From assembly GCF_000516515.1 (NCBI RefSeq), contig NZ_KI911784.1:1768881-1832880 (forward strand): a stretch of DNA of 64,000 bases, read 5' to 3'. The notes beneath the pieces are model-generated. The model saw only the letters and a list, made by a program, of their open reading frames with translations. It made no database searches and was not told the origin of the DNA. The stretch is from Chloroflexus sp. Y-396-1 (GTDB taxonomy: Bacteria > Chloroflexota > Chloroflexia > Chloroflexales > Chloroflexaceae). Both the position numbers and the translations under genes were made by a program. Positions 16,431-26,930 of the stretch are shown here, one piece after another; positions within the stretch are counted from its first letter, which is position 1; each line of letters opens with the position of its first letter.

Positions 16431-16967
16431 CTACTCTTCAACTACAGCACTGGCGAACAAAATACCAACAAGGGGCCAGTCTTCATAACCAGGTCCACGA
16501 ACAAACTGGTTGCGATCAAACGATGTACCAGTCAAATCACCCAACATGATAGCTACTCTGTCACCGACAAATGTATCAACCAACGGTGCGTTAAAGGTTC
16601 CGTCTGAGCCGATAGTCGTCGTAGCAATGTCAATTGCACCGCGGGTAATGTTCACAATCCGGATTGGTACTCCAGCAGGACCGCTACCGGTAATTCGACC
16701 ACTCGACAACCGAACAGGCTGGTCAATAGTGAATCTTGGACCTTCAGGCAGATCGCGGTATGATGGTAGCGGGTATGGATCATTTGAATTAGCAGTGGGT
16801 GGAGGTGGTAACGGATAAGCGCCTGGATAGGCCAGCACTGTTGGAATAGACATAGCAGTGGGGGTACTCACTGCATCGGGATTCGATGATGCACAGGCAG
16901 TTAAGATCAGCATGACCATAATCAATAGGGACCGCCAAAGCAAGTACGTATAGCGCACGGATTTCAA
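16431..16967 (-). CDS. Small secreted lipoprotein of unknown function
   Basis: About 178 aa, with a hydrophobic signal (LLWRSLLIMVMLILTAC) and a lipobox ending LTAC. A Pro/Thr/Tyr-rich linker (YPGAYPLPPPP) follows, then a beta-rich domain with RLSSGRITGSGPAGVPIRIVN, SDGTFNAPL and VGDRVAIMLGD. This looks like a small carboxypeptidase-regulatory or Ig-like sandwich. A perfect GGAGGTAAC lies inside the first codons of the longer ATG frame (start 16979). It is spaced correctly for the in-frame TTG at 16967, which I choose. It lies downstream of the secreted repeat protein with a 12-bp stem-loop between. Confidence 0.7.
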   Translation of the reverse strand: MKSVRYTYLLWRSLLIMVMLILTACASSNPDAVSTPTAMSIPTVLAYPGAYPLPPPPTANSNDPYPLPSYRDLPEGPRFTIDQPVRLSSGRITGSGPAGVPIRIVNITRGAIDIATTTIGSDGTFNAPLVDTFVGDRVAIMLGDLTGTSFDRNQFVRGPGYEDWPLVGILFASAVVEE

Positions 16968-17023
16968 AGTTACCTCCATGGTTATAAGGTTACAAAGCAA
17001 TAGAAATTTCTCGTAAATTATAG

Positions 17024-17060
17024 TAACCAAGCGATAAGAAAACATCTCATCGCTTGGTTA
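17024..17060 (-). terminator. 12-bp stem-loop between the two surface-protein genes
   Basis: TAACCAAGCGAT pairs perfectly with ATCGCTTGGTTA around a 13-base loop. It lies 35 bases after the stop of the secreted repeat protein on the same strand. The following CTATAATTT is only mildly T-rich, so it may be a weak terminator or an mRNA 3'-end stabiliser. Confidence 0.5.
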
Positions 17061-17094: not shown

Positions 17095-18603
17095 CTAAGT
17101 GTTCGGTAAATTAAACGCTTCATAATTCTTTGTATTCAAATTAGGTTGTACGGTACCAAACTGTGCAGTTTCCTGGGCAATACCCACGATCTTTCCTCCT
17201 GACGGAACAGTAACGGTGACTGCACAATTCTGACCGAAAGGAACACTGCCCATAAGCGGTGCGCCAGCAAAACCACTAAAGTTGAAGCTAGAGCCTGGTG
17301 TAATTGGATTGGTAGTGACAGTTACGGGTGAACTGGTACCACACTTAAAGGTAGCGGTCATCGCAACACTGCTCGTTCCAACATTCTGTACCACTAAGGC
17401 TGAAGTAACACCCGCTACATTGCGCTTGAACAATGGTGCTGCTATCCGATTGGTTGCCGAATCCTCTCCGAAGCAAGTATAGGCTGTCGCCCGCACTGGC
17501 GTACCACTAAAGTTTGACTCGTTAACTACCCCAACGAGAATATTATCGGTCGAACCCACCAGCTCAACAGTGGCAGCCGCCAGATTACCATCTGGCATGC
17601 CTCCCATTGTACCTGGATTAAAGCGTGAGAAAACAACCGAACCATTAGCCGGAATAGTAACTCCATTTTGGGTATAAGTAGAGCCCGCATTCGCCCCCTG
17701 ATATACCTGGTAGGTCACATTAACAGTGACGTTTGCATTGGAGGTATTTGCAATTGTCATCCCAGTGGTCCGACCAACAAACTCACTTTTAATCACAGGG
17801 CAATAAATCTTATTGTCTGCTTCTGTATTAGCAAACATTGAAGCTGCCAATACTAGTTGTGCAGGCGACTGAGCGGTCTGAAACTCAATGTACGCACCTA
17901 CAATGCTGCCTGACGAAGAGGTGATCGACAATGCACCAAAGCAGGGTGAAGTGTTGGCATTGCTGCCACATCCTGTACTAGCCATCGGTGGTGTAAAATC
18001 GTTTGGAACCAGGAACACTGAACGGTTAGCCGAAATAGTTAGTGCTTTCGTATGAACACTGCCATTGTTTGCACGAATTGTTGCAGTGATGTTTGCGTCG
18101 CTACCGGCAGCTTGAATAGAGAACACCGTCGTGCGGTTAAAGAAGTTATTCTTGACCACAGGATAGAATAATGATGTCCCAGCTTGTGAAGCACCACGGA
18201 AAAACTCTGCTGCATTGCCACCACTGACACCTAGACCGGGAAATGCACTGAGCTGATTATTCTGAATTGAGCCAATGGCAACTACAGGTTGATCTGAGGA
18301 AATAACCGCTGATCCACTTCCTGACGCGAGAGGGGGAGATACGTCAACTGTTCCAGAAGCGTTATTACCACCAGCAACGAACACTTTCGATGCACCGACA
18401 TCGAGGGTAAAACTTGCAGTAGAAGCACTACCGGTACCTTGAGGATAGACTGCCAGATTGACATTGGCTGTTGCACCACCAACATTTTGAATAGTAGCTG
18501 TGGAATACCAGCCGGTGCCTGGCAGAGCCTGGGCGTAGACAACCGAAGACACACTTAAAACGATAGCCATTGAGAGTAGACAGAGAAGTAACCTTCGCCG
18601 CAT
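17095..18603 (-). CDS. Secreted surface protein with four tandem beta-sandwich-like repeats
   Basis: A 502-aa exported protein with signal peptide RRRLLLCLLSMAIVLSVSS ending VYAQA. The mature part is rich in Ser, Thr, Asn, Gly and Val and almost free of charge. It consists of about four repeats of 100-130 residues. Each opens with a P-V-hydrophobic-K-N/S-x-F-x-R/V-T-T/S pattern (YPVVKNNFFNRTTVFSIQ; CPVIKSEFVGRTTGMTIANT; APLFKRNVAGVTSALVVQNVG) and ends with an NGSVVFSRF-like strand; the first repeat begins TGWYSTATIQNVGG. I know no named family. GGAGG lies 7-8 bases before the chosen ATG, and a longer frame from 18687 lacks a site. It follows the glycan operon and may be its target. Confidence 0.8.
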   Translation of the reverse strand: MRRRLLLCLLSMAIVLSVSSVVYAQALPGTGWYSTATIQNVGGATANVNLAVYPQGTGSASTASFTLDVGASKVFVAGGNNASGTVDVSPPLASGSGSAVISSDQPVVAIGSIQNNQLSAFPGLGVSGGNAAEFFRGASQAGTSLFYPVVKNNFFNRTTVFSIQAAGSDANITATIRANNGSVHTKALTISANRSVFLVPNDFTPPMASTGCGSNANTSPCFGALSITSSSGSIVGAYIEFQTAQSPAQLVLAASMFANTEADNKIYCPVIKSEFVGRTTGMTIANTSNANVTVNVTYQVYQGANAGSTYTQNGVTIPANGSVVFSRFNPGTMGGMPDGNLAAATVELVGSTDNILVGVVNESNFSGTPVRATAYTCFGEDSATNRIAAPLFKRNVAGVTSALVVQNVGTSSVAMTATFKCGTSSPVTVTTNPITPGSSFNFSGFAGAPLMGSVPFGQNCAVTVTVPSGGKIVGIAQETAQFGTVQPNLNTKNYEAFNLPNT

Positions 18604-18736
18604 ACCAAAACCTCCTTCTAATCTAATCAGATGACGATGACGATCCTTCGCGTTATTCGCGTTACAACAATATGATGACTCCTTCACAACAACAATAACT
18701 CGAAAGTATTAGTTGCTCCACACACATGGGCTACTC

Positions 18737-20413
18737 TTATTCGAGGTACCCAAGATCCCGCAGACGATCAAGCACCTCTTGCTCTTCCTCAGCACTTTCC
18801 CAATCAACATTGTTTAGAGGTCGGCGTAAATCTCCGGTAGATGTAGTACTTACCTCAGTAGACTGTTGATGAGACTGTTTAACAAATGTCTTAGATAGAA
18901 ACTCGGTTAGAATCCGCCCATCCTGTTCGGGTGACGTTGGTATTCCTAGAAGACACATAATAGTTGGAGCAACATCGACAATCTGTGCTTCAGGTAGCCT
19001 GCCATGATTTGGAACAGTTGGGCCGCACATTGCCAGCAATCCAAGTGGACGATGGATACCAGTAAAGTTTGAACCAGGTGAAGCAAAAATCTGCTGACCA
19101 GCCATTTCGCGCCATGATTGAGCAACATAACTCATTCCACGCATAATGACATTGAGATCTGGCCCGTAATCCGCATACGGGCCATGGTATAAATCCTTAC
19201 CACGATATACAGCATCAACCACTGGTTGACCGTTGTCAGTCAACTGGAAAAGGGCTGTAGTGATTTCATCGAGAAGAGACTCATATTCAACACCAGGCGC
19301 AACGATCCCCTGCGGCTCGCGACCGCGAAGATTGACATAAACTTGACCAATATTACCAAAACTATATGCTTTCGTTTTTTGCCAATCAATCGTGTCGGCC
19401 AGCAAGTTGATAGTAGAAGGAGCAAGACGACGCTGCCAAGCGATTGGTATGCGCTGACGCAGCCATATCCAGAATGCACTATTCAAACGTGGAGAAAGAC
19501 GTTCACGGGTAATGCCAATGGTGATAGCCAGTTGTCGTAACCAATTTTCGCTAAATCGGGGAGTACGACGTTTCAGCCATCCATGTTGTTCTAGCCAGAC
19601 ATTCAAAAAAACTTCCCGGTGAAGTGGTCCTCCACCATGATCTGAAACCAACACAATTGTCGTTTCTGGACCAGCCATGTGCATGAGCCGTCCAATCTCT
19701 TCATCAAGCAAGCGATGTACTTTCAAGATAGCAGGCCCAAACCTCGCAGCTTTTTCAGGGTCATGAAGCGGATGGGTTGGATCCATGTGATGCCAGAAAA
19801 ATGTCTCTACCTCGTCAATTGCCCGGTATACGATCATGCCCAATTGCCAAGGTGTACGTTCCATGAGGCGAAGCATTGCATCAGTCTGGCTTCGTGTCAC
19901 ACGGGCAAGTTCAATCAACCACTGTTGTTCACGGCCAGGGGCAAATTCTGTTTCCGGCTCGATCTGATAGCCCCATGCCAGCAGTTCATCTCGTAGATGG
20001 CGAGGATGGGTAAACTGACCACTCACCGGTGCTCCAAGACCTGAAACCATGATCCCATTAACAGGAATGGGAGGATACGTCATCGGCACATTAAGAGCCA
20101 GAACAAACTTACCATACTCACTGGCATAATCAAATATGGTCTTATACGTGGTCTGATCGCGGCGAGTACTGACAATATGATAACTACCTGGTGCAAGGCG
20201 AACAAAGTCGAAGATACCATGTTTACCTGGATTCAAACCACTGATCAGCGATGTCCAGGCGGGTGGTGACATAACAGGAATCGTTGAACGTAGTGGCGCA
20301 AAACTACCCCGATTCAGTACAGCGCCAATGTGTTTTAGCCATCCTGCATCAACCCAAGGCTTAATGAGATCGAGATCAGCGGCATCAAGGCCGATAATTA
20401 AGACGCGGCTCAT
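18737..20413 (-). CDS. Alkaline phosphatase superfamily phosphohydrolase (type I phosphodiesterase-like)
   Basis: A 558-aa cytoplasmic-looking enzyme of the alkaline phosphatase/nucleotide pyrophosphatase superfamily. The N-terminal metal Asp is in VLIIGLDAADLDL, the nucleophile loop is VMSPPAWTSLISGLNPGKHGIF, and later metal ligands are in VLVSDHGGG and in FTGIHRPLG. A C-terminal 60-residue tail (about 495-558) is acidic and charged. There is no signal peptide. Enzymes of this type cleave or transfer phosphodiesters; the substrate is unknown. It overlaps the flippase gene by 4 bp and is a distant paralogue of the protein at 23738-25141. Confidence 0.85.
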   Translation of the reverse strand: MSRVLIIGLDAADLDLIKPWVDAGWLKHIGAVLNRGSFAPLRSTIPVMSPPAWTSLISGLNPGKHGIFDFVRLAPGSYHIVSTRRDQTTYKTIFDYASEYGKFVLALNVPMTYPPIPVNGIMVSGLGAPVSGQFTHPRHLRDELLAWGYQIEPETEFAPGREQQWLIELARVTRSQTDAMLRLMERTPWQLGMIVYRAIDEVETFFWHHMDPTHPLHDPEKAARFGPAILKVHRLLDEEIGRLMHMAGPETTIVLVSDHGGGPLHREVFLNVWLEQHGWLKRRTPRFSENWLRQLAITIGITRERLSPRLNSAFWIWLRQRIPIAWQRRLAPSTINLLADTIDWQKTKAYSFGNIGQVYVNLRGREPQGIVAPGVEYESLLDEITTALFQLTDNGQPVVDAVYRGKDLYHGPYADYGPDLNVIMRGMSYVAQSWREMAGQQIFASPGSNFTGIHRPLGLLAMCGPTVPNHGRLPEAQIVDVAPTIMCLLGIPTSPEQDGRILTEFLSKTFVKQSHQQSTEVSTTSTGDLRRPLNNVDWESAEEEQEVLDRLRDLGYLE

Positions 20414-21882
20414 ATTTCACCTCTTATTACACGGTGGTTGCGAATATGCAATAAGCGCCAGAACGCCTGCAGCTCTTCTTTTTGAAATCCACCAAAAAGA
20501 CATAAAGAAAAGATGTAAACGAATGCTCCAATAATCACTTCAATCACCCATGAGAAATGCAACCAACCATTAAGCAAGAAAAAGATGATCGTAATAATAG
20601 TTGTACCGACGGCAGGCCACACCATTGACCAGATTGGGAAGGAGTAAATCTCCCGACGCACAATCCAGAAACACCACCAGAAGACCAGTGCAGCCGAACA
20701 GACCTTCGCTATAGCAGCACCTATAACACTGAACATTGGTTGGAGGGTAAGATTCAACCCTACATTCAGTAGTACACCAGCCAACTGTGGAAGAACTGCA
20801 CGGTGTTGAATGCCGGCTGTGAGCATCAATCGTCCGTTAGGAACAAGGAGCATTGTCCAAAGAAACGACCAAATCAAAACTTGCAAGATTGGTATTGAAA
20901 GGATAAATGACTGGCGATACATCATTGAAACGATTTCTGGCGCAATGAAAGTAATAAGTAAACAACAAAACAATGCCCCATACAGAGCTATACGCATAAA
21001 AATCGTGTATAAACGTAAAGATTTTTCTCGATCCATGTAAAATGTAGCAGAAAAAATAGACAAAATAATTTGACGCAAAGTATTAGGCATGATCAGTAGT
21101 GCATTAAGTATTGTAGCCGCAGCATTATATGAACCGACTAAGATAATATCATTTGAACCACCTCCAGAAAGCAATAAACTATCAAAATTACCTTCCAGCG
21201 CAGCCATTAATGCCATCAGCAAGAGCGGGGTTTCTGCATGAACGTAGCGTTTCCACAATTGTTTTTGCAGAGCGACAGAAGGCCAAAAAAAATACTTTCC
21301 AATCATTAAAAATCCAATAAGCATCCCCATCCAACTCGTTACAACAACAATCACGGCCACAGTAGCACTATTGCCACCGAGTACAATAAGTGCTGCTCCC
21401 AAGCAAACCCGCGCCAGACCGGTCAGCGCGTTGAGACCAACGATATAATAAACACGATTGGCCGCAATGAAAAAAGACTGAAACAGATTGGTGAGACTTT
21501 CAGGGATTATGGTTGAGCCAAGTAAACCAATGACCAGCACGGTATATTGATCATAGGCACTATACGTAACCAACCATAAGAACAACCCACCATAAATAAG
21601 GATAGCCGTGAAAGCGCGAGCCAGCAGAAAATTGCCTAATGTTATTCGGCTACTAGCAAGATCATGTGAAGCGTCGCGGTTGAGTAATTGTTCGAGACCA
21701 CCCAAACAAAAAGCTGTTAATAATCCTGTATACACGAAGCCGATACTGAAAGTACTTGCTTCAATCGGAGTTGTCTTCCATGTTAGTAGTATGAAAAAGA
21801 TAGTATTTGACATCCGGGACAACAGTTCGGCAATTATAGCCAGAGTGGTACCCTGGAATGCACGCCATAGCCAGTATTTCAT
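20410..21882 (-). CDS. Polysaccharide flippase (MATE/MVF superfamily, Wzx-like)
   Basis: A 490-aa polytopic membrane protein with about 12-14 helices. It moves lipid-linked glycans across the membrane in related systems. The N-terminus WLWRAFQGTTLAIIAELLSRMSN and the GGLEQLLNRDA loop fit the polysaccharide-transporter family. The gene is strikingly AT-rich: 21001-21060 has 17 G or C in 60 by my count, against well over half in recA. This suggests relaxed constraint or foreign origin. It overlaps both the methyltransferase (upstream) and phosphohydrolase (downstream) genes by 4 bp. Confidence 0.85.
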   Translation of the reverse strand: MKYWLWRAFQGTTLAIIAELLSRMSNTIFFILLTWKTTPIEASTFSIGFVYTGLLTAFCLGGLEQLLNRDASHDLASSRITLGNFLLARAFTAILIYGGLFLWLVTYSAYDQYTVLVIGLLGSTIIPESLTNLFQSFFIAANRVYYIVGLNALTGLARVCLGAALIVLGGNSATVAVIVVVTSWMGMLIGFLMIGKYFFWPSVALQKQLWKRYVHAETPLLLMALMAALEGNFDSLLLSGGGSNDIILVGSYNAAATILNALLIMPNTLRQIILSIFSATFYMDREKSLRLYTIFMRIALYGALFCCLLITFIAPEIVSMMYRQSFILSIPILQVLIWSFLWTMLLVPNGRLMLTAGIQHRAVLPQLAGVLLNVGLNLTLQPMFSVIGAAIAKVCSAALVFWWCFWIVRREIYSFPIWSMVWPAVGTTIITIIFFLLNGWLHFSWVIEVIIGAFVYIFSLCLFGGFQKEELQAFWRLLHIRNHRVIRGEI

Positions 21883-22859
21883 CTTTTGGAATGACTTTCT
21901 GCTAAACTTGCAACGGGTGGCGAAGGTGGAGTCCAGGTTATTGGTGCTGCAATTACATTACCATATCCGCGATGGACGAGGTGCGTTTGATGAATGTAAA
22001 TTGCCGATTCATACGGGCTTGATACCGGCTCGATACAATTTCGTAACGAGTGATACCGCCAAAATCGATAACCAAACTGACTAAGTAGCTCCCAGATTAC
22101 TACCTGACGGCCAAATTTACGATTGAATTCGCACACAATTAACGGTTGGCGCGGCTGTTGAAATAGAGCAGTTGCATACCTTAACACAATATCTTCAGCA
22201 CCTTCTACATCGATTACAATCAAATCAACCTTATCAATGAAATGCTGCTTTAACCACGTATCTAGCCGCGCCACTGGCACACGCTCATATGGCTGTAAGG
22301 GTTGCTGCGCCAATAATGATGACTGCAGAGTTGAGGATTCCAAAAAGATTCGCGTCTCTCCGTCGACATCACCGAAAGCCAGACGATAGGTAGTGATGTT
22401 TTCCGGCACAAGACCACGCAACTGATTCCACGCAACATTCAGTTGTAGGTGTTGGTATGTTTTTAACACTGGCTCAAAAGCATACACATGTCCCTCTGGT
22501 AGAAGCTGAGCCAGTGCCAGTGTATACACCCCAATATGTGCACCAATATTCAATGCGATCATATCAGCTCGAACCAAAGCTGGCAGTAGAAAAAATTCGG
22601 CCTCATACAATGGTGTCTGATATACGAAAAGCGGGTATTCATGACGCAACGACGTGACAAGAATCTCTATCTCTGGCCTATAAGGTATGTGAATAATTGT
22701 CGGTTGGTCTATTGTTTTGGTAAAACGCCGCCAGTACCATCTAATCATGCGGGCGAGGAGATTACGCCATGGTATATGTCCGGATGGATAGACATGACTT
22801 CTAACCCAGCACCACTCGTATAGTTGCCGAGTGATCGGGAAATGTTGCCATAGTGTCAT
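21879..22859 (-). CDS. FkbM family methyltransferase
   Basis: A 326-aa SAM-dependent O-methyltransferase, probably acting on a sugar or other small hydroxylated group. Its central domain (about 95-260) has the SAM motif LNIGAHIGVYTLALAQ, then GHVYAFEPV, and the acidic VDLIVIDVEGAE motif typical of FkbM. The N-terminal 90 residues are basic and aromatic with no clear domain. It lies between a glycosyltransferase and the flippase with 4-bp overlaps on both sides, which points to decoration of the glycan before export. Confidence 0.88.
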   Translation of the reverse strand: MTLWQHFPITRQLYEWCWVRSHVYPSGHIPWRNLLARMIRWYWRRFTKTIDQPTIIHIPYRPEIEILVTSLRHEYPLFVYQTPLYEAEFFLLPALVRADMIALNIGAHIGVYTLALAQLLPEGHVYAFEPVLKTYQHLQLNVAWNQLRGLVPENITTYRLAFGDVDGETRIFLESSTLQSSLLAQQPLQPYERVPVARLDTWLKQHFIDKVDLIVIDVEGAEDIVLRYATALFQQPRQPLIVCEFNRKFGRQVVIWELLSQFGYRFWRYHSLRNCIEPVSSPYESAIYIHQTHLVHRGYGNVIAAPITWTPPSPPVASLAESHSKR

Positions 22860-23728
22860 GATTGTATCCCATTTGCCAATCCATCATACCATGCCAGACG
22901 ACTCCAGAGTATACCGGGCAATATATGTGGATAGGCCCGTAACTCAGGATATTTAAGCCATCGTTCAATGCAGTCGATCACTGCTAAAAGTGGTGCAATT
23001 GCACGCAAGATATCTGGCCGACCACAAGCCAGATCAGTGCGCCGGTATCGCCCTGTTAATTCAGGATATCGAGGATAGATTGTAGCATAACTCCGTCCAA
23101 ACGAAGACAAATGGCGCCAGACGTCACCACTGGTAAGACGATGATGACGATGTTCAACTGCCGCGCTCGGCTCGAAAAATAGTCGATAACCGCGTTTTCT
23201 GATACGAAATGAAAGATCGGCGTCCTCCCCTGAAGCACCGAAAAAACGCTCATCAAATCCACCTAGATCAAGGAAGAGACTACGACGAATACTTAAGTTT
23301 AAACTAGGCAGGTATGGTCGTTCACCACGCGGCTGGCTGGTTAAAAATGGCGCGAAGACAGCTAGATTATCACAGAGATGCCAGTAATGACGATCATGAA
23401 TAGCAATGCCCCCACCAACTACCGCCTCACTCTGAAGGTGAGCTTGCACATGTTGGTGCAGACATTGGGGATAAGCGAGACAGTCAGCATCAATGAAGCA
23501 GACAATATCGCCATATGCAGCAGTTGCACCCCGATTTCGTGCAACTGCTGCACTTACCGATTTAGGAGTTTCAATAAAACGTACCAGCGGATAGTTCTTG
23601 ATACGCTGTTGATCATCGCGCCCCACCACAATGATTTCACAAGGAGATGTTTGCTGCTGATGCAATGATTGCAAGACAGCATCAATGAGTGGTGAATTTA
23701 AATTAGGAATAACAACTGACACTTTCAT
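22856..23728 (-). CDS. Family 2 glycosyltransferase
   Basis: A 290-aa GT-A fold glycosyltransferase. It has MKVSVVIPNLNSP, the nucleotide-binding CFIDADCLAYP (the DxD-like motif) and the acceptor/catalytic stretch LDLGGFDERFFGASGEDADLS. No membrane segment is obvious, although the C-terminal 60 residues are hydrophobic enough to associate with membrane. It closely resembles the glycosyltransferase at 25138-26034, sharing CDNL, LPSLNLSIRRSLF, GGFDERF and GEDxDxSxRxRxxG. It overlaps the FkbM gene by 4 bp and follows the second phosphohydrolase gene by 9 bases. Confidence 0.9.
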   Translation of the reverse strand: MKVSVVIPNLNSPLIDAVLQSLHQQQTSPCEIIVVGRDDQQRIKNYPLVRFIETPKSVSAAVARNRGATAAYGDIVCFIDADCLAYPQCLHQHVQAHLQSEAVVGGGIAIHDRHYWHLCDNLAVFAPFLTSQPRGERPYLPSLNLSIRRSLFLDLGGFDERFFGASGEDADLSFRIRKRGYRLFFEPSAAVEHRHHRLTSGDVWRHLSSFGRSYATIYPRYPELTGRYRRTDLACGRPDILRAIAPLLAVIDCIERWLKYPELRAYPHILPGILWSRLAWYDGLANGIQS

Positions 23729-23737
23729 CTTTCTGGC

Positions 23738-25141
23738 TCACCATTCTCGACATCGACCAATCATTGTGTTCGGTATCGGTTGATCAAGATACTGCAAGAT
23801 GGTTGGTGCAACATCGTAAATGGTAATGTCTTCCACACCCGCTGTTTCACGACTGTGGCGTGGATTATAGAATATATACATTCCAAACTGCGCATGATTG
23901 GCATCATCAGGTCCGGTATCATTTTCAAACGTATAGATATTTTCGTGACCGACGCTACCAATCGATCTCCAGTCAAGATCACCGAAGTAGACTATCAGGT
24001 CGGGGGCAATACCACGTATCTGTCGATAAATGGCTTCTGGTTTGAAGACACGATTATTCATTAACTGCCCACGATGATCTCGTAAGTTCGATAGCTTGAT
24101 AGCAATCTCATCGCGAATTGTCTCATATTCGTACTCACCAATGGTACCCTGTGGTTCACGTCCGGCGACATTCAAAAAGATGCGACCATAATACCCGCCT
24201 GCCCCCCAGGCTCGAGTAGCTTTCCAGTTGATTCGGCATTGTTCGAGCGGCGTGGGACGCCGTGGATAGTCATCTAAAACAAGGTATCCTTCACGGATCA
24301 ACCAATCGTTTAAGCAGACCCCTCCCTGCATTGCTTTAGCCCCGTGATCGGAGATGATTAAAACTGCTGTGTTATCATCAATAACATTCAGAATTTCACC
24401 GATCTTTTGATCAATAAATTGATAGTAATCGTGAATAGCATGAGCGAAAGGACTCCCAGGAACATATTTTGGATGTGAGGGATCCATGTCTTTCCAAAAC
24501 CCATGGTGAATTCGATCTACGCCCATCTCAACCACGACAAAAAAATCATACGACTGACGTTTGAGCAATTGGCGGCAGATCGTGAAACGCTGTTCAGCCA
24601 GACGGTAGATATTTCGTAGAATTCGCGGCTTATCCGCCGAACGGAAATCTGGTACATCAACCAGGAACTCTTCACCGATCCAGCTCAGAATCTCGTCACG
24701 TAGAGCCAACGGATAGGTAAACTGGCTTTGCGCGTTTGGTGTTAAGAAACAACTAACCAACTCACCATTTATAGGGGACACGGGATAGGTAGGGGGAACA
24801 CTAATAACACCAACTCGTTTACCTGCTGAGCCAAGGATATCCCACAAACGGGGAACCGGCACAGAGCGAGAAGTAACTGTTGCCATTCTCGTGTAACTAT
24901 AATCAGCCCGATTCCGAAATCCATAAATACCAAGTTGGCCTGGATCCTGGCTGCTCATCATACAGGCCCAAGCAGGAACTGTAATCGCCGGAATACAACT
25001 CTCCATACGTCCATAGATGCCACGTTCCATCAAGGAGCGTAGTACTGGAAGATCATTACGCCAGTGCGAAAAGATTAGTTCTGGTGCTGCGCAATCAAGG
25101 CCAATGATCAATAGCTTCTCTGCACGAGGATTCGTTGTCAT
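23738..25141 (-). CDS. Alkaline phosphatase superfamily phosphohydrolase, second copy
   Basis: A 467-aa member of the same superfamily as the 18737-20413 product. The metal Asp is in LLIIGLDCAAPEL, the nucleophile loop is AITVPAWACMMSSQDPGQLGIYGF, followed by NRADYSYTR, and the metal site is VLIISDHGAK. Where the other copy and most family members have PGKHGI, this one has PGQLGI, a known variant in a prokaryotic subgroup. There is no signal peptide. Overlaps the upstream glycosyltransferase by 4 bp (ATGA). Substrate unknown; its place in a glycan operon suggests an activated-sugar or lipid phosphodiester. Confidence 0.85.
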   Translation of the reverse strand: MTTNPRAEKLLIIGLDCAAPELIFSHWRNDLPVLRSLMERGIYGRMESCIPAITVPAWACMMSSQDPGQLGIYGFRNRADYSYTRMATVTSRSVPVPRLWDILGSAGKRVGVISVPPTYPVSPINGELVSCFLTPNAQSQFTYPLALRDEILSWIGEEFLVDVPDFRSADKPRILRNIYRLAEQRFTICRQLLKRQSYDFFVVVEMGVDRIHHGFWKDMDPSHPKYVPGSPFAHAIHDYYQFIDQKIGEILNVIDDNTAVLIISDHGAKAMQGGVCLNDWLIREGYLVLDDYPRRPTPLEQCRINWKATRAWGAGGYYGRIFLNVAGREPQGTIGEYEYETIRDEIAIKLSNLRDHRGQLMNNRVFKPEAIYRQIRGIAPDLIVYFGDLDWRSIGSVGHENIYTFENDTGPDDANHAQFGMYIFYNPRHSRETAGVEDITIYDVAPTILQYLDQPIPNTMIGRCREW

Positions 25142-26034
25142 ATAGGATCATTCCTTTGCAATAGTAGCATCTCGCCGTATCCCCAGTACCAGGCGCTTTT
25201 CCCTAACGCCATCCCAGGAAGGCAGTGCCAAAATGACCGAAGCTGCGGATAGCGATAGTACAATCGTAACATATCTGCCACTGACAGTAGTGGCGCAACT
25301 GATAGTAACAACCATACCCACGGTCGCAGCCCATTAGGCAACGCAGACCGGCCAAGCTGGCGATGACGCTGATGCAGGAGAACCTGAATTCGACCAAACG
25401 AACGTAAGTGATCGATGACTGCGGCGACATTAACTCGCTGAGGACGATGATACACGATAGCGTCGGAGGCAAAGAATAAATGGTGCCCGTACTCGCGCAG
25501 TCGAAGACTAAAATCGATATCTTCCCCTGCCGCTCCACCAAATCGCTCATCGAAGCCGCCAATAGCAATGAAGAGTGAGCGCCGTATGCTCAAGTTTAGA
25601 CTTGGCAAATACGCTCGATCACCTGACGGCATTATGTTCAAGAAAGAGGTAAACGATAGAAGATTATCACATAATCGCCAGTAAGCATCATCTCTTTCAA
25701 CTGCAATGCTACCTCCTACCACCATTCGGCCACTCGTATGGAGTGCAAGATGACGTTCTACAAGATAGGGATGTGCGATGCAATCCGAGTCAATGAATAG
25801 TAACACATCACCACTTGCAATCTGAGCACCGAGATTTCGAGCTACTGCAGCGGCAACTGGCCGACTAGTTGGAACAAATCGCGCTGGCGGAATGACTTGA
25901 TCAGGTGTACATTGGCCGACAACGATAATTTCGCGAATGTGAGAACTCGCTGTTTGTCGGTCTAACGACATAATAACGTCACGGAGCATTGAGGAATGAA
26001 GGGTAGGAATAACAATCGATATGTTCACCGTCAA
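25138..26034 (-). CDS. Family 2 glycosyltransferase, first gene of the glycan operon
   Basis: A 298-aa GT-A glycosyltransferase with NISIVIPTLHSS, the DxD-like LLFIDSDCIAHP, and GGFDERFGGAAGEDIDFSLR. It is a close paralogue of the 22856-23728 gene. Each copy is adjacent to a phosphohydrolase gene, so a two-gene module seems to have been duplicated. It is the most upstream gene of the minus-strand block. A divergent methyltransferase gene starts 87 bases away, so the control region is shared. Confidence 0.9.
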   Translation of the reverse strand: MTVNISIVIPTLHSSMLRDVIMSLDRQTASSHIREIIVVGQCTPDQVIPPARFVPTSRPVAAAVARNLGAQIASGDVLLFIDSDCIAHPYLVERHLALHTSGRMVVGGSIAVERDDAYWRLCDNLLSFTSFLNIMPSGDRAYLPSLNLSIRRSLFIAIGGFDERFGGAAGEDIDFSLRLREYGHHLFFASDAIVYHRPQRVNVAAVIDHLRSFGRIQVLLHQRHRQLGRSALPNGLRPWVWLLLSVAPLLSVADMLRLYYRYPQLRSFWHCLPGMALGKSAWYWGYGEMLLLQRNDPI

Positions 26035-26120: not shown

Positions 26121-26930
26121 ATGAGTATCAATCCAATTGATGATCGGTTAGGCAAGCACCTTTCGCCGGGTGATCGTCACTATCGTGCTTTCGTAAGCCA
26201 TCCTGACAACTATGATATTGTTGCTGCACTACAATTTAATTTGCTAACCTCACTGGGTTTACGTGAACATCATTATCTCCTTGATATTGGATGCGGATCA
26301 CTGCGTGGTGGACGATTGTTCATTCCATATTTGCTGAGTGGTCATTATTTCGGGATTGAACCAGAACAATGGTTAATTGAGGAAGGTATCAAACATGAGC
26401 TAGGGGAATCCATTCTTGCGGTAAAGCAGCCATCGTTCGCTCACGACCGCTCGTTCAATCTTGAAGTATTTGGAAGAACGTTTGATTTTCTTTTGGCACA
26501 GTCGATCTTTTCACACGCATCAGCCTTACAGATCAAAGCATGTGTCGCTTCTGCCAAGAAGGTGATGAAACCTGATGCCATCTTTGTGGCTAACTTTGTG
26601 GAGAGTAATGAAAATTACACTGGTCATGAATGGGTATACCCTGGTGGATCATACTATACACTAGATTTTATGTGCAGGTTGGTCGAGGAGCAAGGAATGA
26701 CTTGCATACCAATTCATTGGCCGCATCCAGTGGGACTGCGCTGGATTTTGATCGTACATCCTCAACAAGCAAACCGTCAGTTTCTAAAGGATATGGATGT
26801 TGTGACCTTACGAGCCGAACGTGATGCTGCTCTCGCTCGTCTCTGTAAAATTGAATCACATCCTTATGTCATGTTTGGGCGAACTGTACGTCGCTGGTTA
26901 TATGCGTTATTGCAACGTCGAACACACTGA
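26121..26930 (+). CDS. Class I SAM-dependent methyltransferase
   Basis: A 269-aa methyltransferase with the glycine-rich SAM loop LLDIGCGSLRGGRLFIPYL, then YFGIEPEQWLIEEG, and a later FLLAQSIFSHAS motif. Such proteins, often found in glycan or lipopeptide clusters, methylate small molecules. An N-terminal 55-residue segment precedes the domain and a basic C-terminal tail follows. AGGAG is placed well before the ATG, and a promoter is visible. It is transcribed away from the glycan block, and a decayed transposase follows immediately. Confidence 0.85.
   Translation: MSINPIDDRLGKHLSPGDRHYRAFVSHPDNYDIVAALQFNLLTSLGLREHHYLLDIGCGSLRGGRLFIPYLLSGHYFGIEPEQWLIEEGIKHELGESILAVKQPSFAHDRSFNLEVFGRTFDFLLAQSIFSHASALQIKACVASAKKVMKPDAIFVANFVESNENYTGHEWVYPGGSYYTLDFMCRLVEEQGMTCIPIHWPHPVGLRWILIVHPQQANRQFLKDMDVVTLRAERDAALARLCKIESHPYVMFGRTVRRWLYALLQRRTH

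Follow-up and report, generated by a model that had tools for sequence, protein, structure and literature searches.

Why would an operon that assembles and exports a glycan encode two soluble-looking enzymes of the alkaline phosphatase (AP) superfamily? The question is raised by six minus-strand genes of Chloroflexus sp. Y-396-1, in the order GT2a, PH1, GT2b, FkbM, flippase, and PH2, which lie in a stretch of 64,000 nucleotides (the window, meaning the whole stretch of DNA that was analyzed; G000:C1:1768881-1832880) of a 4.89-Mb single-contig genome. An original prediction, made from the sequence of the window, had proposed that PH1 and PH2 could make or trim a phosphodiester-linked glycan or recycle the lipid carrier. 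The neighborhoods of PH1 relatives, where the sulfate activation genes Sat and CysC are found, point elsewhere; because of them, the operon appears to be concerned with sulfation and not with phosphate chemistry, and we regard its link to sulfation as likely. Taken as a whole, the operon is best explained as building a methylated lipid-linked glycan that is sulfated in the cytoplasm by PH1 and PH2 and then flipped, a reading to which we give a probability of roughly 50%. The chances that PH1 and/or PH2 is the transferase itself are about even.

Organization of the operon

The glycosyltransferase family 2 (GT2) genes GT2a (25138..26028) and GT2b (22856..23728), PH1 (23738..25141), the FkbM-family methyltransferase gene (21879..22859), the flippase gene (20410..21882), and PH2 (18737..20413) all lie on the minus strand. 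The junctions GT2a/PH1, GT2b/FkbM, FkbM/flippase, and flippase/PH2 are 4-bp overlaps and PH1/GT2b is a 9-base gap, exactly as had been predicted. The GTG at 26028 is the more likely start of GT2a, although the TTG at 26034 is also possible.

The gene families named earlier were likewise borne out by Pfam matches above the curated cut-offs, which were applied to ten window proteins. GT2a matched PF10111 (1.3e-14) and PF00535 (1.2e-11), GT2b matched PF00535 (1.2e-16), and the FkbM protein, which likely O-methylates a sugar, matched PF05050 (5.8e-19) and TIGR01444 (5.3e-25). PH1 and PH2, both resembling nucleotide pyrophosphatases/phosphodiesterases (NPPs), matched PF01663 at 1.5e-42 and 2.7e-31 (146.9 and 109.9 bits, with a cut-off of 23), while the Wzx-like flippase of the polysaccharide-export family gave a weak match to PF01943 (2.5e-08; 34 bits against a cut-off of 28). 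The two GT2 proteins are paralogues with 46.7% identity over 289 residues, and to this extent the proposal of two paired glycosyltransferase/hydrolase modules stood, but PH1 and PH2 shared just 27.8% identity over 514 residues, which excludes a recent duplication. PH1, PH2, and two secreted-protein genes downstream received no name from NCBIfam, no polymerase or chain-length gene was recognized in the operon, and none of the six operon proteins matched the classical sulfotransferase families PF00685 and PF13469 in Pfam. The locus is, as originally described, a glycan operon of the flippase type that also encodes two soluble-looking AP-superfamily enzymes lying outside the ordinary Wzx/Wzy parts.

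PH1 relatives beside sulfate activation genes

Genome contigs were searched with a profile of 19 aligned PH1 sequences, and the best 80 of 558 relatives, a nonrandom sample, were examined as PH1 loci. At least 9 of the 80 stem from genomes also used among the other relatives, and one with a Gracilibacteria title (L143) is the same contig as G023, from a family of the window's own order. The PH1 homologues across these loci showed 51 to 63% identity, and in 44 of the 80 Sat and/or CysC was found within ±8 kb of PH1. The positive loci carried eight phylum-level labels, namely, Chloroflexota (31 of 38), Verrucomicrobia (3 of 7), Methylomirabilota (2 of 2), Deltaproteobacteria (1 of 3), and KSB1, Omnitrophota, Poribacteria, and Zipacnadia (1 of 1 each), in addition to 3 of 4 unclassified loci. 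By a rough estimate (two such genes in 5 Mb, ±8 kb), chance would place Sat or CysC this close to PH1 at less than 1% of loci. In the 44 loci scored for strand and distance, 5 of which had a PH1 frame outside the set of open reading frames, the nearest separate Sat or CysC gene was on the same strand as PH1 in 38 of 38 cases and no more than 100 bp away in 28 of 38. A single open frame covered both Sat and PH1 in 13 of the 44 loci, and also in G049 and G052, giving an apparent ATP sulfurylase-PH1 fusion (for example, L042:17906-19999, L047:2168-4846, L095, L096, L098, and L111).

The common gene orders were Sat-PH1-CysC, after which some loci have PHc, a third NPP-like protein (9 of 80 loci), and sulfatase-like-Lgt-PH1, partly with Sat-CysC. 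The latter cassette, in which the sulfatase-like protein reads T-x-P-S-H in place of the formylglycine motif, is conserved between Chloroflexota and Cyanobacteria, and examples are L036:12393-16188 (C1:4167392-4171187 of the window's own genome), L049, L083, L103, L108, and L141. PH1 homologues were mostly found beside Sat/CysC and not beside glycosyltransferases; a scatter of the hydrolases independent of the glycosyltransferases, named in the original prediction as evidence against it, was therefore observed in part. PH2-type genes shared a locus with PH1 in 11 of the 80 cases, other phyla included, and some of these had glycosyltransferase and flippase genes. PH1 and PH2 were adjacent or one gene apart in L120, L121, L124, L127, L131, and L146 (verrucomicrobial, with one acidobacterial title), and glycosyltransferase, HlyD/OEP export, and flippase genes were found in the scanned contigs L120, L121, and L124.

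In a PH1 tree of 93 rows, the window sequence grouped with those of G004, G042, and G040 with a support of 98 in the Shimodaira-Hasegawa-like approximate likelihood ratio test (SH-aLRT), and the group extended by G049 and G052 had a support of 89. The G040 neighbor is the sequence of a Sat-PH1-CysC operon. Since the PH1 proteins of the window, G004, and G042 group with Sat-PH1-CysC sequences, the PH1 of the glycan operons looks as though it was recruited from a sulfate activation operon. The window's own genome encodes a Sat-CysC protein at C1:1541752 and a CysC at C1:430589, and a supply of 3'-phosphoadenosine 5'-phosphosulfate (PAPS) is therefore present.

The conserved unit in relatives

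The window-type operon was recovered in several relatives. On a 6.9-kb contig of G004, the order was PH1-GT2-FkbM-flippase-PH2 at 62 to 78% identity, and in G042 it was PH1-GT2-two methyltransferases-flippase-PH2-530-aa protein-204-aa protein-methyltransferase; it is GT2b that lies beside PH1 in both. G057 had GT2-PH2-flippase-296aa-530-204, with PH1 elsewhere, beside Sat-CysC, and in G040 one contig carried PH2-530-204 and a different contig carried PH1, flanked by Sat and CysC. In G044, a co-directional run consisted of a methyltransferase, a flippase (26% identity; identified through BLAST alone, as Pfam gave no match), PH2 (41%), the 530-aa protein (32%), the 204-aa protein (27%), a 213-aa gene, a Sat-CysC fusion, and PH1 (50%). 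Here the window-type cassette continues straight into sulfate activation. The gene orders of G042, G004, G044, G040, and G057 show that PH2-530-204 is the constant core and that the position of PH1 varies between the glycan operon and the sulfate activation genes.

The two genes that complete this core trail PH2 in four relatives (G042, G040, G044, and G057) and also in the window. The first is a 530-aa frame (17095..18687, minus strand) 49 bases from PH2 and in the same direction, which has no Pfam match and 13 N-x-S/T sites; read by eye, its true start more likely lies near 18603, and the secreted-looking product is a candidate surface protein or glycan acceptor. The second encodes a small lipoprotein-like protein of 204 aa (16431..17045, minus strand) with a lipobox, LTAC, seen by eye and no Pfam match. 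The six genes of the original prediction are thus real, but the conserved unit continues beyond them into these two.

Like Wzx/Wzy and other flippase-dependent glycan operons, the window-type operon has GT2s, a methyltransferase, and a Wzx-like flippase; it differs in having an NPP-like PH2 and two secreted proteins as constant parts, with PH1 optional. The predicted set of GT2, hydrolase, and flippase does recur (in G004 and G042 and, in another order, in G057), and no Wzy polymerase was recognized among the ten window proteins in a scan confined to this stretch; most neighbors in the relatives lie outside it.

In a 61-genome survey, whole-length, single-stretch PH2 matches were found in 9 genomes, 7 of which also have PH1 (all except G032 and G045).

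Possible users of PAPS in the surveyed genomes

The survey covered 61 related genomes, some of them draft, in which PH1 was counted by hand at about 50% identity or more. PH1 was present in 27 of them and adjoined Sat/CysC in 17 of the 27 (in G060 through a Sat cut at the contig end). Twelve of these 17 had no PF13469 or PF00685 match, while G040, G044, G049, G052, and G057 did; among the remaining ten PH1 genomes, only G020 and G023 lacked one (12/17 versus 2/10; Fisher, 0.018). G008, G036, and G051, which are 97 to 100% complete, also had no PF01507 match. Sat-CysC loci with PF00685 or PF13469 proteins likewise place a supply of PAPS beside a possible sulfo-transferring enzyme, but in the 17 relatives, which belong to other genera, PH1 holds that place, as if PH1 and the classical sulfotransferase alternated there.

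The absence of classical sulfotransferases is nevertheless weak support for a role of PH1. No PF13469 or PF00685 match was found in 19 of the 34 genomes without PH1, and G001 has Sat-CysC and no PH1, PF13469, PF00685, or PF01507 match; because of these genomes, a PAPS synthase without a recognized user is no pointer to PH1 on its own. Additionally, in 4 of the 10 genomes scored as not adjacent (G002, G013, G022, and G030), the contig breaks off no more than about 330 bases from PH1. No match to PF03567 or PF19798 was obtained in 12 genomes, but the positive controls were equally silent, and phmmer searches of the 80 loci with ten reference frames, a small and uneven query set run with no positive control, found no classical sulfotransferase or PAPS reductase. 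The G044 run is the stronger evidence.

Active sites and folds of PH1 and PH2

PH1 retained D16, T54, D209, H213, D265, H266, and H416, which we take, from motif matching, to be the nucleophile and metal ligands of NPPs; the Thr nucleophile and all six ligands are thus kept. Six of the seven residues were invariant in the 19-sequence alignment, and D16 was present in at least 90%. A loss of the nucleophile, with the Ala of PAWAC at the catalytic position, was considered and ruled out, because counting to the conserved Gly puts the Thr of ITVPAW there, and this Thr was present in every PH1 row reaching that position. PH2 keeps D10, S49, D200, D258, H259, and H454, so that five of the six ligands are in place and the residue aligned with the nucleophile is a Ser. 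Neither protein has the formylglycine sulfatase motif C/S-x-P-x-R, PH1 reading ITVPAW and PH2 reading MSPPAW, and the sulfatase-like neighbors of PH1 have T-(I/V/M)-P-(S/A)-H at the place of that motif in 11 of 14 rows (those 11 read).

The predicted model of PH1 had a mean predicted local distance difference test score (pLDDT) of 86.3 and a predicted template modeling score of 0.89. Among the 50 matches listed per search, lists that carry no test of other families, its best PDB match was Xac NPP (Z, 29.8; root mean square deviation [rmsd], 3.3 over 339 residues; about 14% identity), with ENPP4 and ENPP5 with AMP close behind. The PH2 model (pLDDT, 80.7) also matched NPPs best (Z, 31.7; rmsd, 3.6 over 347 residues), and the NPP matches of the two models were at about 12 to 19% identity. 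A sequence search of solved structures gave nothing useful, the best match being phosphonoacetate hydrolase (E, 0.29). PH1 and PH2 thus resemble NPPs (Xac NPP and ENPP1-7) in the fold of the catalytic domain and, by motif, in the pattern of nucleophile and metal ligands, and they differ from them in genomic context and, in the window PH2, in one missing metal-ligand His. A clear orthology of PH1 to a known nucleotide-cleaving enzyme, which the original prediction had named as evidence against it, was not seen; the NPP-like fold of PH1 comes with about 14% identity. PAPS or 3'-phosphoadenosine 5'-phosphate (PAP) is a plausible substrate for the modeled PH1 or PH2, since NPPs bind adenine nucleotides, but an NPP-like fold cannot separate transfer from hydrolysis.

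A C-terminal tail on PH2 and on CysC

PH2 ends in a tail, SAEEEQEVLDRLRDLGYLE (18740..18796, minus strand; terminus DRLRDLGYLE), whose RL..LGY is invariant in 16 of 16 PH2 proteins. In the PH2 model, it forms a helix (residues 541 to 553) after a linker (519 to 538) with a pLDDT below 50. PH2 alone carries the tail among 51 frames of the window. With the loosest expression, the tail was found in the 80 loci on 11 of 11 PH2, 13 of 14 sulfatase-like, 0 of 10 PHc, 2 of 71 PH1, and 1 of 595 unassigned frames, counts that cover frames of at least 350 aa for PH2, PHc, and sulfatase-like proteins, 300 aa for PH1, and 150 aa for unassigned frames.

The tail was also found on CysC. Stand-alone CysC near PH1 had an extra 19 to 47 residues with the tail in 18 of 31 cases (among them L042:17283-17909, L047:1545-2171, and L084:7746-8351), compared with 0 of 21 for CysC elsewhere and 0 of 17 for Sat-fused CysC (near PH1 versus elsewhere: Fisher, 5e-6, uncorrected for kinship). 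These tails were read by eye, with rows of identical last 60 residues counted once; the regular expression gave 19 near PH1, two of them native CysC ends, with one tail missed, and elsewhere it marked one native end.

In Haloarchaea, eight plasmid glycan clusters were picked as PH1 tblastn matches (8 of 59 records). The tail ended 12 of 15 annotated whole AP/sulfatase proteins there and stood five residues before the end in two more. Among 164 other frames of these clusters and of two CysC loci, it was present on two, a further sulfatase and a PAPS-reductase-family (PF01507) protein (L059:7697-8668). Two haloarchaeal CysC proteins and two classical sulfotransferases had no tail. Haloarchaeal plasmid CysC matches were also tried as a route to PH1-like genes and led to annotated classical sulfotransferases instead.

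We know of no name for the RLxxLGY tail, and literature searches turned up none. On PH2 it is probably a docking peptide for a shared partner of sulfate activation. It could alternatively be an inherited oddity of one enzyme superfamily, uninformative on docking or sulfation; most carriers found are AP-superfamily proteins, and native CysC often ends in a similar stretch, but the added stretch also occurs on other folds, namely, stand-alone CysC near PH1 and a PF01507 protein, and PHc and nearly all PH1 of the same superfamily lack it. We therefore consider this alternative doubtful. A wider proposal is tentative and, in our view, rather unlikely as a whole: bacteria and Haloarchaea may share a sulfation machinery of NPP-like and sulfatase-like enzymes that replaces classical sulfotransferases, in which members of unrelated folds (APS kinase, where APS is adenosine 5'-phosphosulfate, PAPS-reductase-family protein, PH2, and sulfatase-like proteins) would dock to a common partner via the helix tail VExRLxxLGYxE and pass activated sulfate within the complex, with Sat-fused CysC being tailless because the fusion does the same job.

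Proposed role of the operon and alternatives

In the model that we prefer, the two GT2s and FkbM would build, in the cytoplasm, a short surface glycan that is lipid linked and methylated, PH1 and PH2 would sulfate it there, and the Wzx-like flippase would turn the sulfated glycan outward, possibly for the secreted protein encoded downstream. PAPS would be supplied by the Sat-CysC enzymes encoded elsewhere in the genome. The NPP-type site would act on PAPS, either with the Thr/Ser nucleophile taking the sulfo group or by positioning PAPS for direct transfer, and the sulfo group would then be handed to a sugar hydroxyl. The very conserved PH1 may perform the nucleotide-linked step and the variable PH2 may serve a particular acceptor. 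Sulfotransfer, the acceptor, docking, and the order of steps are all inferred.

A precedent makes an NPP-like glycan sulfotransferase conceivable. Agl30 and Agl31 (VNG1056C and VNG1057C), AP-superfamily proteins of the aglB cluster of Halobacterium salinarum, sulfate an N-linked tetrasaccharide; their deletion cuts sulfation, and their expression in Haloferax volcanii sulfates the host glycan (PMC11980604). One is membrane bound, and Agl31 is soluble and cytosolic (PMC11980604). PH1 and PH2 are similarly AP-superfamily proteins in a glycan assembly cluster, and the Hbt. salinarum glycan is also methylated; however, Agl30 and Agl31 are archaeal and are described as sulfatase-like, whereas PH1 and PH2 are NPP-like PF01663 proteins and PH1 has its own link to Sat/CysC. 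In literature searches, this archaeal report was the sole link of the AP superfamily to sulfotransfer, and the term "alkaline phosphatase" does not occur in the accessible part of PMC11625862.

Several observations, together with the counts for genomes without PH1 and for contig ends given above, weigh against the proposed role. No Sat or CysC was found near 36 of the 80 PH1 loci, including all 17 cyanobacterial ones (and the single loci from Acidobacteria, Planctomycetes, Gracilibacteria, Thermoleophilia, and Blastocatellia), and the window operon itself has neither gene. In the window's own genus, a PF00685 protein follows the Sat-CysC fusion in 7 of 8 genomes, and PAPS therefore already has a user there. 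The haloarchaeal plasmid genes resembling PH1 (8 of 59 records examined) occur in glycan clusters in which no CysC is annotated, and both haloarchaeal CysC loci examined have a classical sulfotransferase in their annotation. Lgt, the lipoprotein diacylglyceryl transferase, occurs beside PH1 relatives, and the model gives no account of it. Finally, the window PH2 has Thr204 where the D-x3-H metal motif has His (among 16 aligned PH2 proteins, Thr in the window, G004, and G042, Ser in G040, and His in the other 12), a loss that could mean altered or lost activity.

The strongest rival is that PH1, as a PAP phosphatase or a PAPS/APS hydrolase, removes or recycles the sulfate activation nucleotide, with PH2 and the sulfatase-like proteins being transferases or something else. 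The constancy of PH1 in the Sat-PH1-CysC operon and its high identity across phyla fit a small constant substrate, and PH2, whose relatives in the 16-row alignment are 31 to 78% identical to the window protein, shows only 32 to 36% outside the close kin of the order. Moreover, the closest solved structures are nucleotide phosphodiesterases, and hydrolysis of PAPS or PAP is chemically at least as natural for PH1 as transfer. PH1 itself matches PF01663 and not the CysQ family, which has the inositol-phosphatase fold. However, CysQ-type relatives were found in all 61 genomes (all below the curated cut-off), so that a need for another PAP phosphatase is undemonstrated; 12 of the 17 paired genomes have no PF00685 or PF13469 protein that would make PAP, and the window PH1 has a GT2 gene on either side and is not close to Sat/CysC. 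On this balance, we hold hydrolysis by PH1 to be possible but not likely.

A second alternative, which we judge improbable, stays closer to the original prediction and has PH1 and PH2 move or cut phosphate, by phosphoethanolamine or phosphoglycerol transfer of the LtaS, EptA, or PIG-N type or by trimming a phosphodiester glycan. PF01663 membership and the NPP-like fold agree with this, as do the loss of the metal-ligand His in PH2, which resembles one-metal transferases, and the Lgt gene beside many PH1 genes, the substrate of Lgt being phosphatidylglycerol. LtaS and EptA are membrane enzymes, though, and no hydrophobic N-terminal membrane anchor was noticed in PH1 or PH2 by eye; Sat and CysC, the operon partners of PH1, have no part in phosphate transfer to glycans. 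Recycling of the lipid carrier or clearing of stalled intermediates by a housekeeping pyrophosphatase would suit the location in a flippase operon but leaves the link to Sat/CysC without explanation, and since the known phosphatases of undecaprenyl pyrophosphate belong to other families and are membrane proteins, we set it aside as very improbable.

The search for microbial sulfotransferases has for the most part been guided by the P-loop sulfotransferase families. Should NPP-like enzymes prove to transfer sulfate in several phyla, many bacterial glycans that carry sulfate, and the enzymes that make them, may have gone unnoticed, a large group of "alkaline phosphatase family protein" genes would gain a testable role, and the Halobacterium precedent would be one case of a wide route. 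The shared tail would give an independent marker for sulfation partners and a testable docking hypothesis, and the Sat-PH1-CysC operons offer a simple in vitro test of sulfotransfer.

Neighboring genes and other loci

A divergent methyltransferase-like gene (26121..26930, plus strand), whose match to PF08242 was just below the cut-off, precedes the window operon, and a 54% match (L040:15494-16327) also adjoins the G042 operon. The window's own genome has a second sulfation locus, with a classical PF00685 sulfotransferase immediately after the Sat-CysC fusion (L155:2574-5066; C1:1540573-1543065). Upstream of the G044 operon lies a ribonucleotide reductase frame with ATP-cone, intein splicing, and LAGLIDADG domains (L044:13867-17280).

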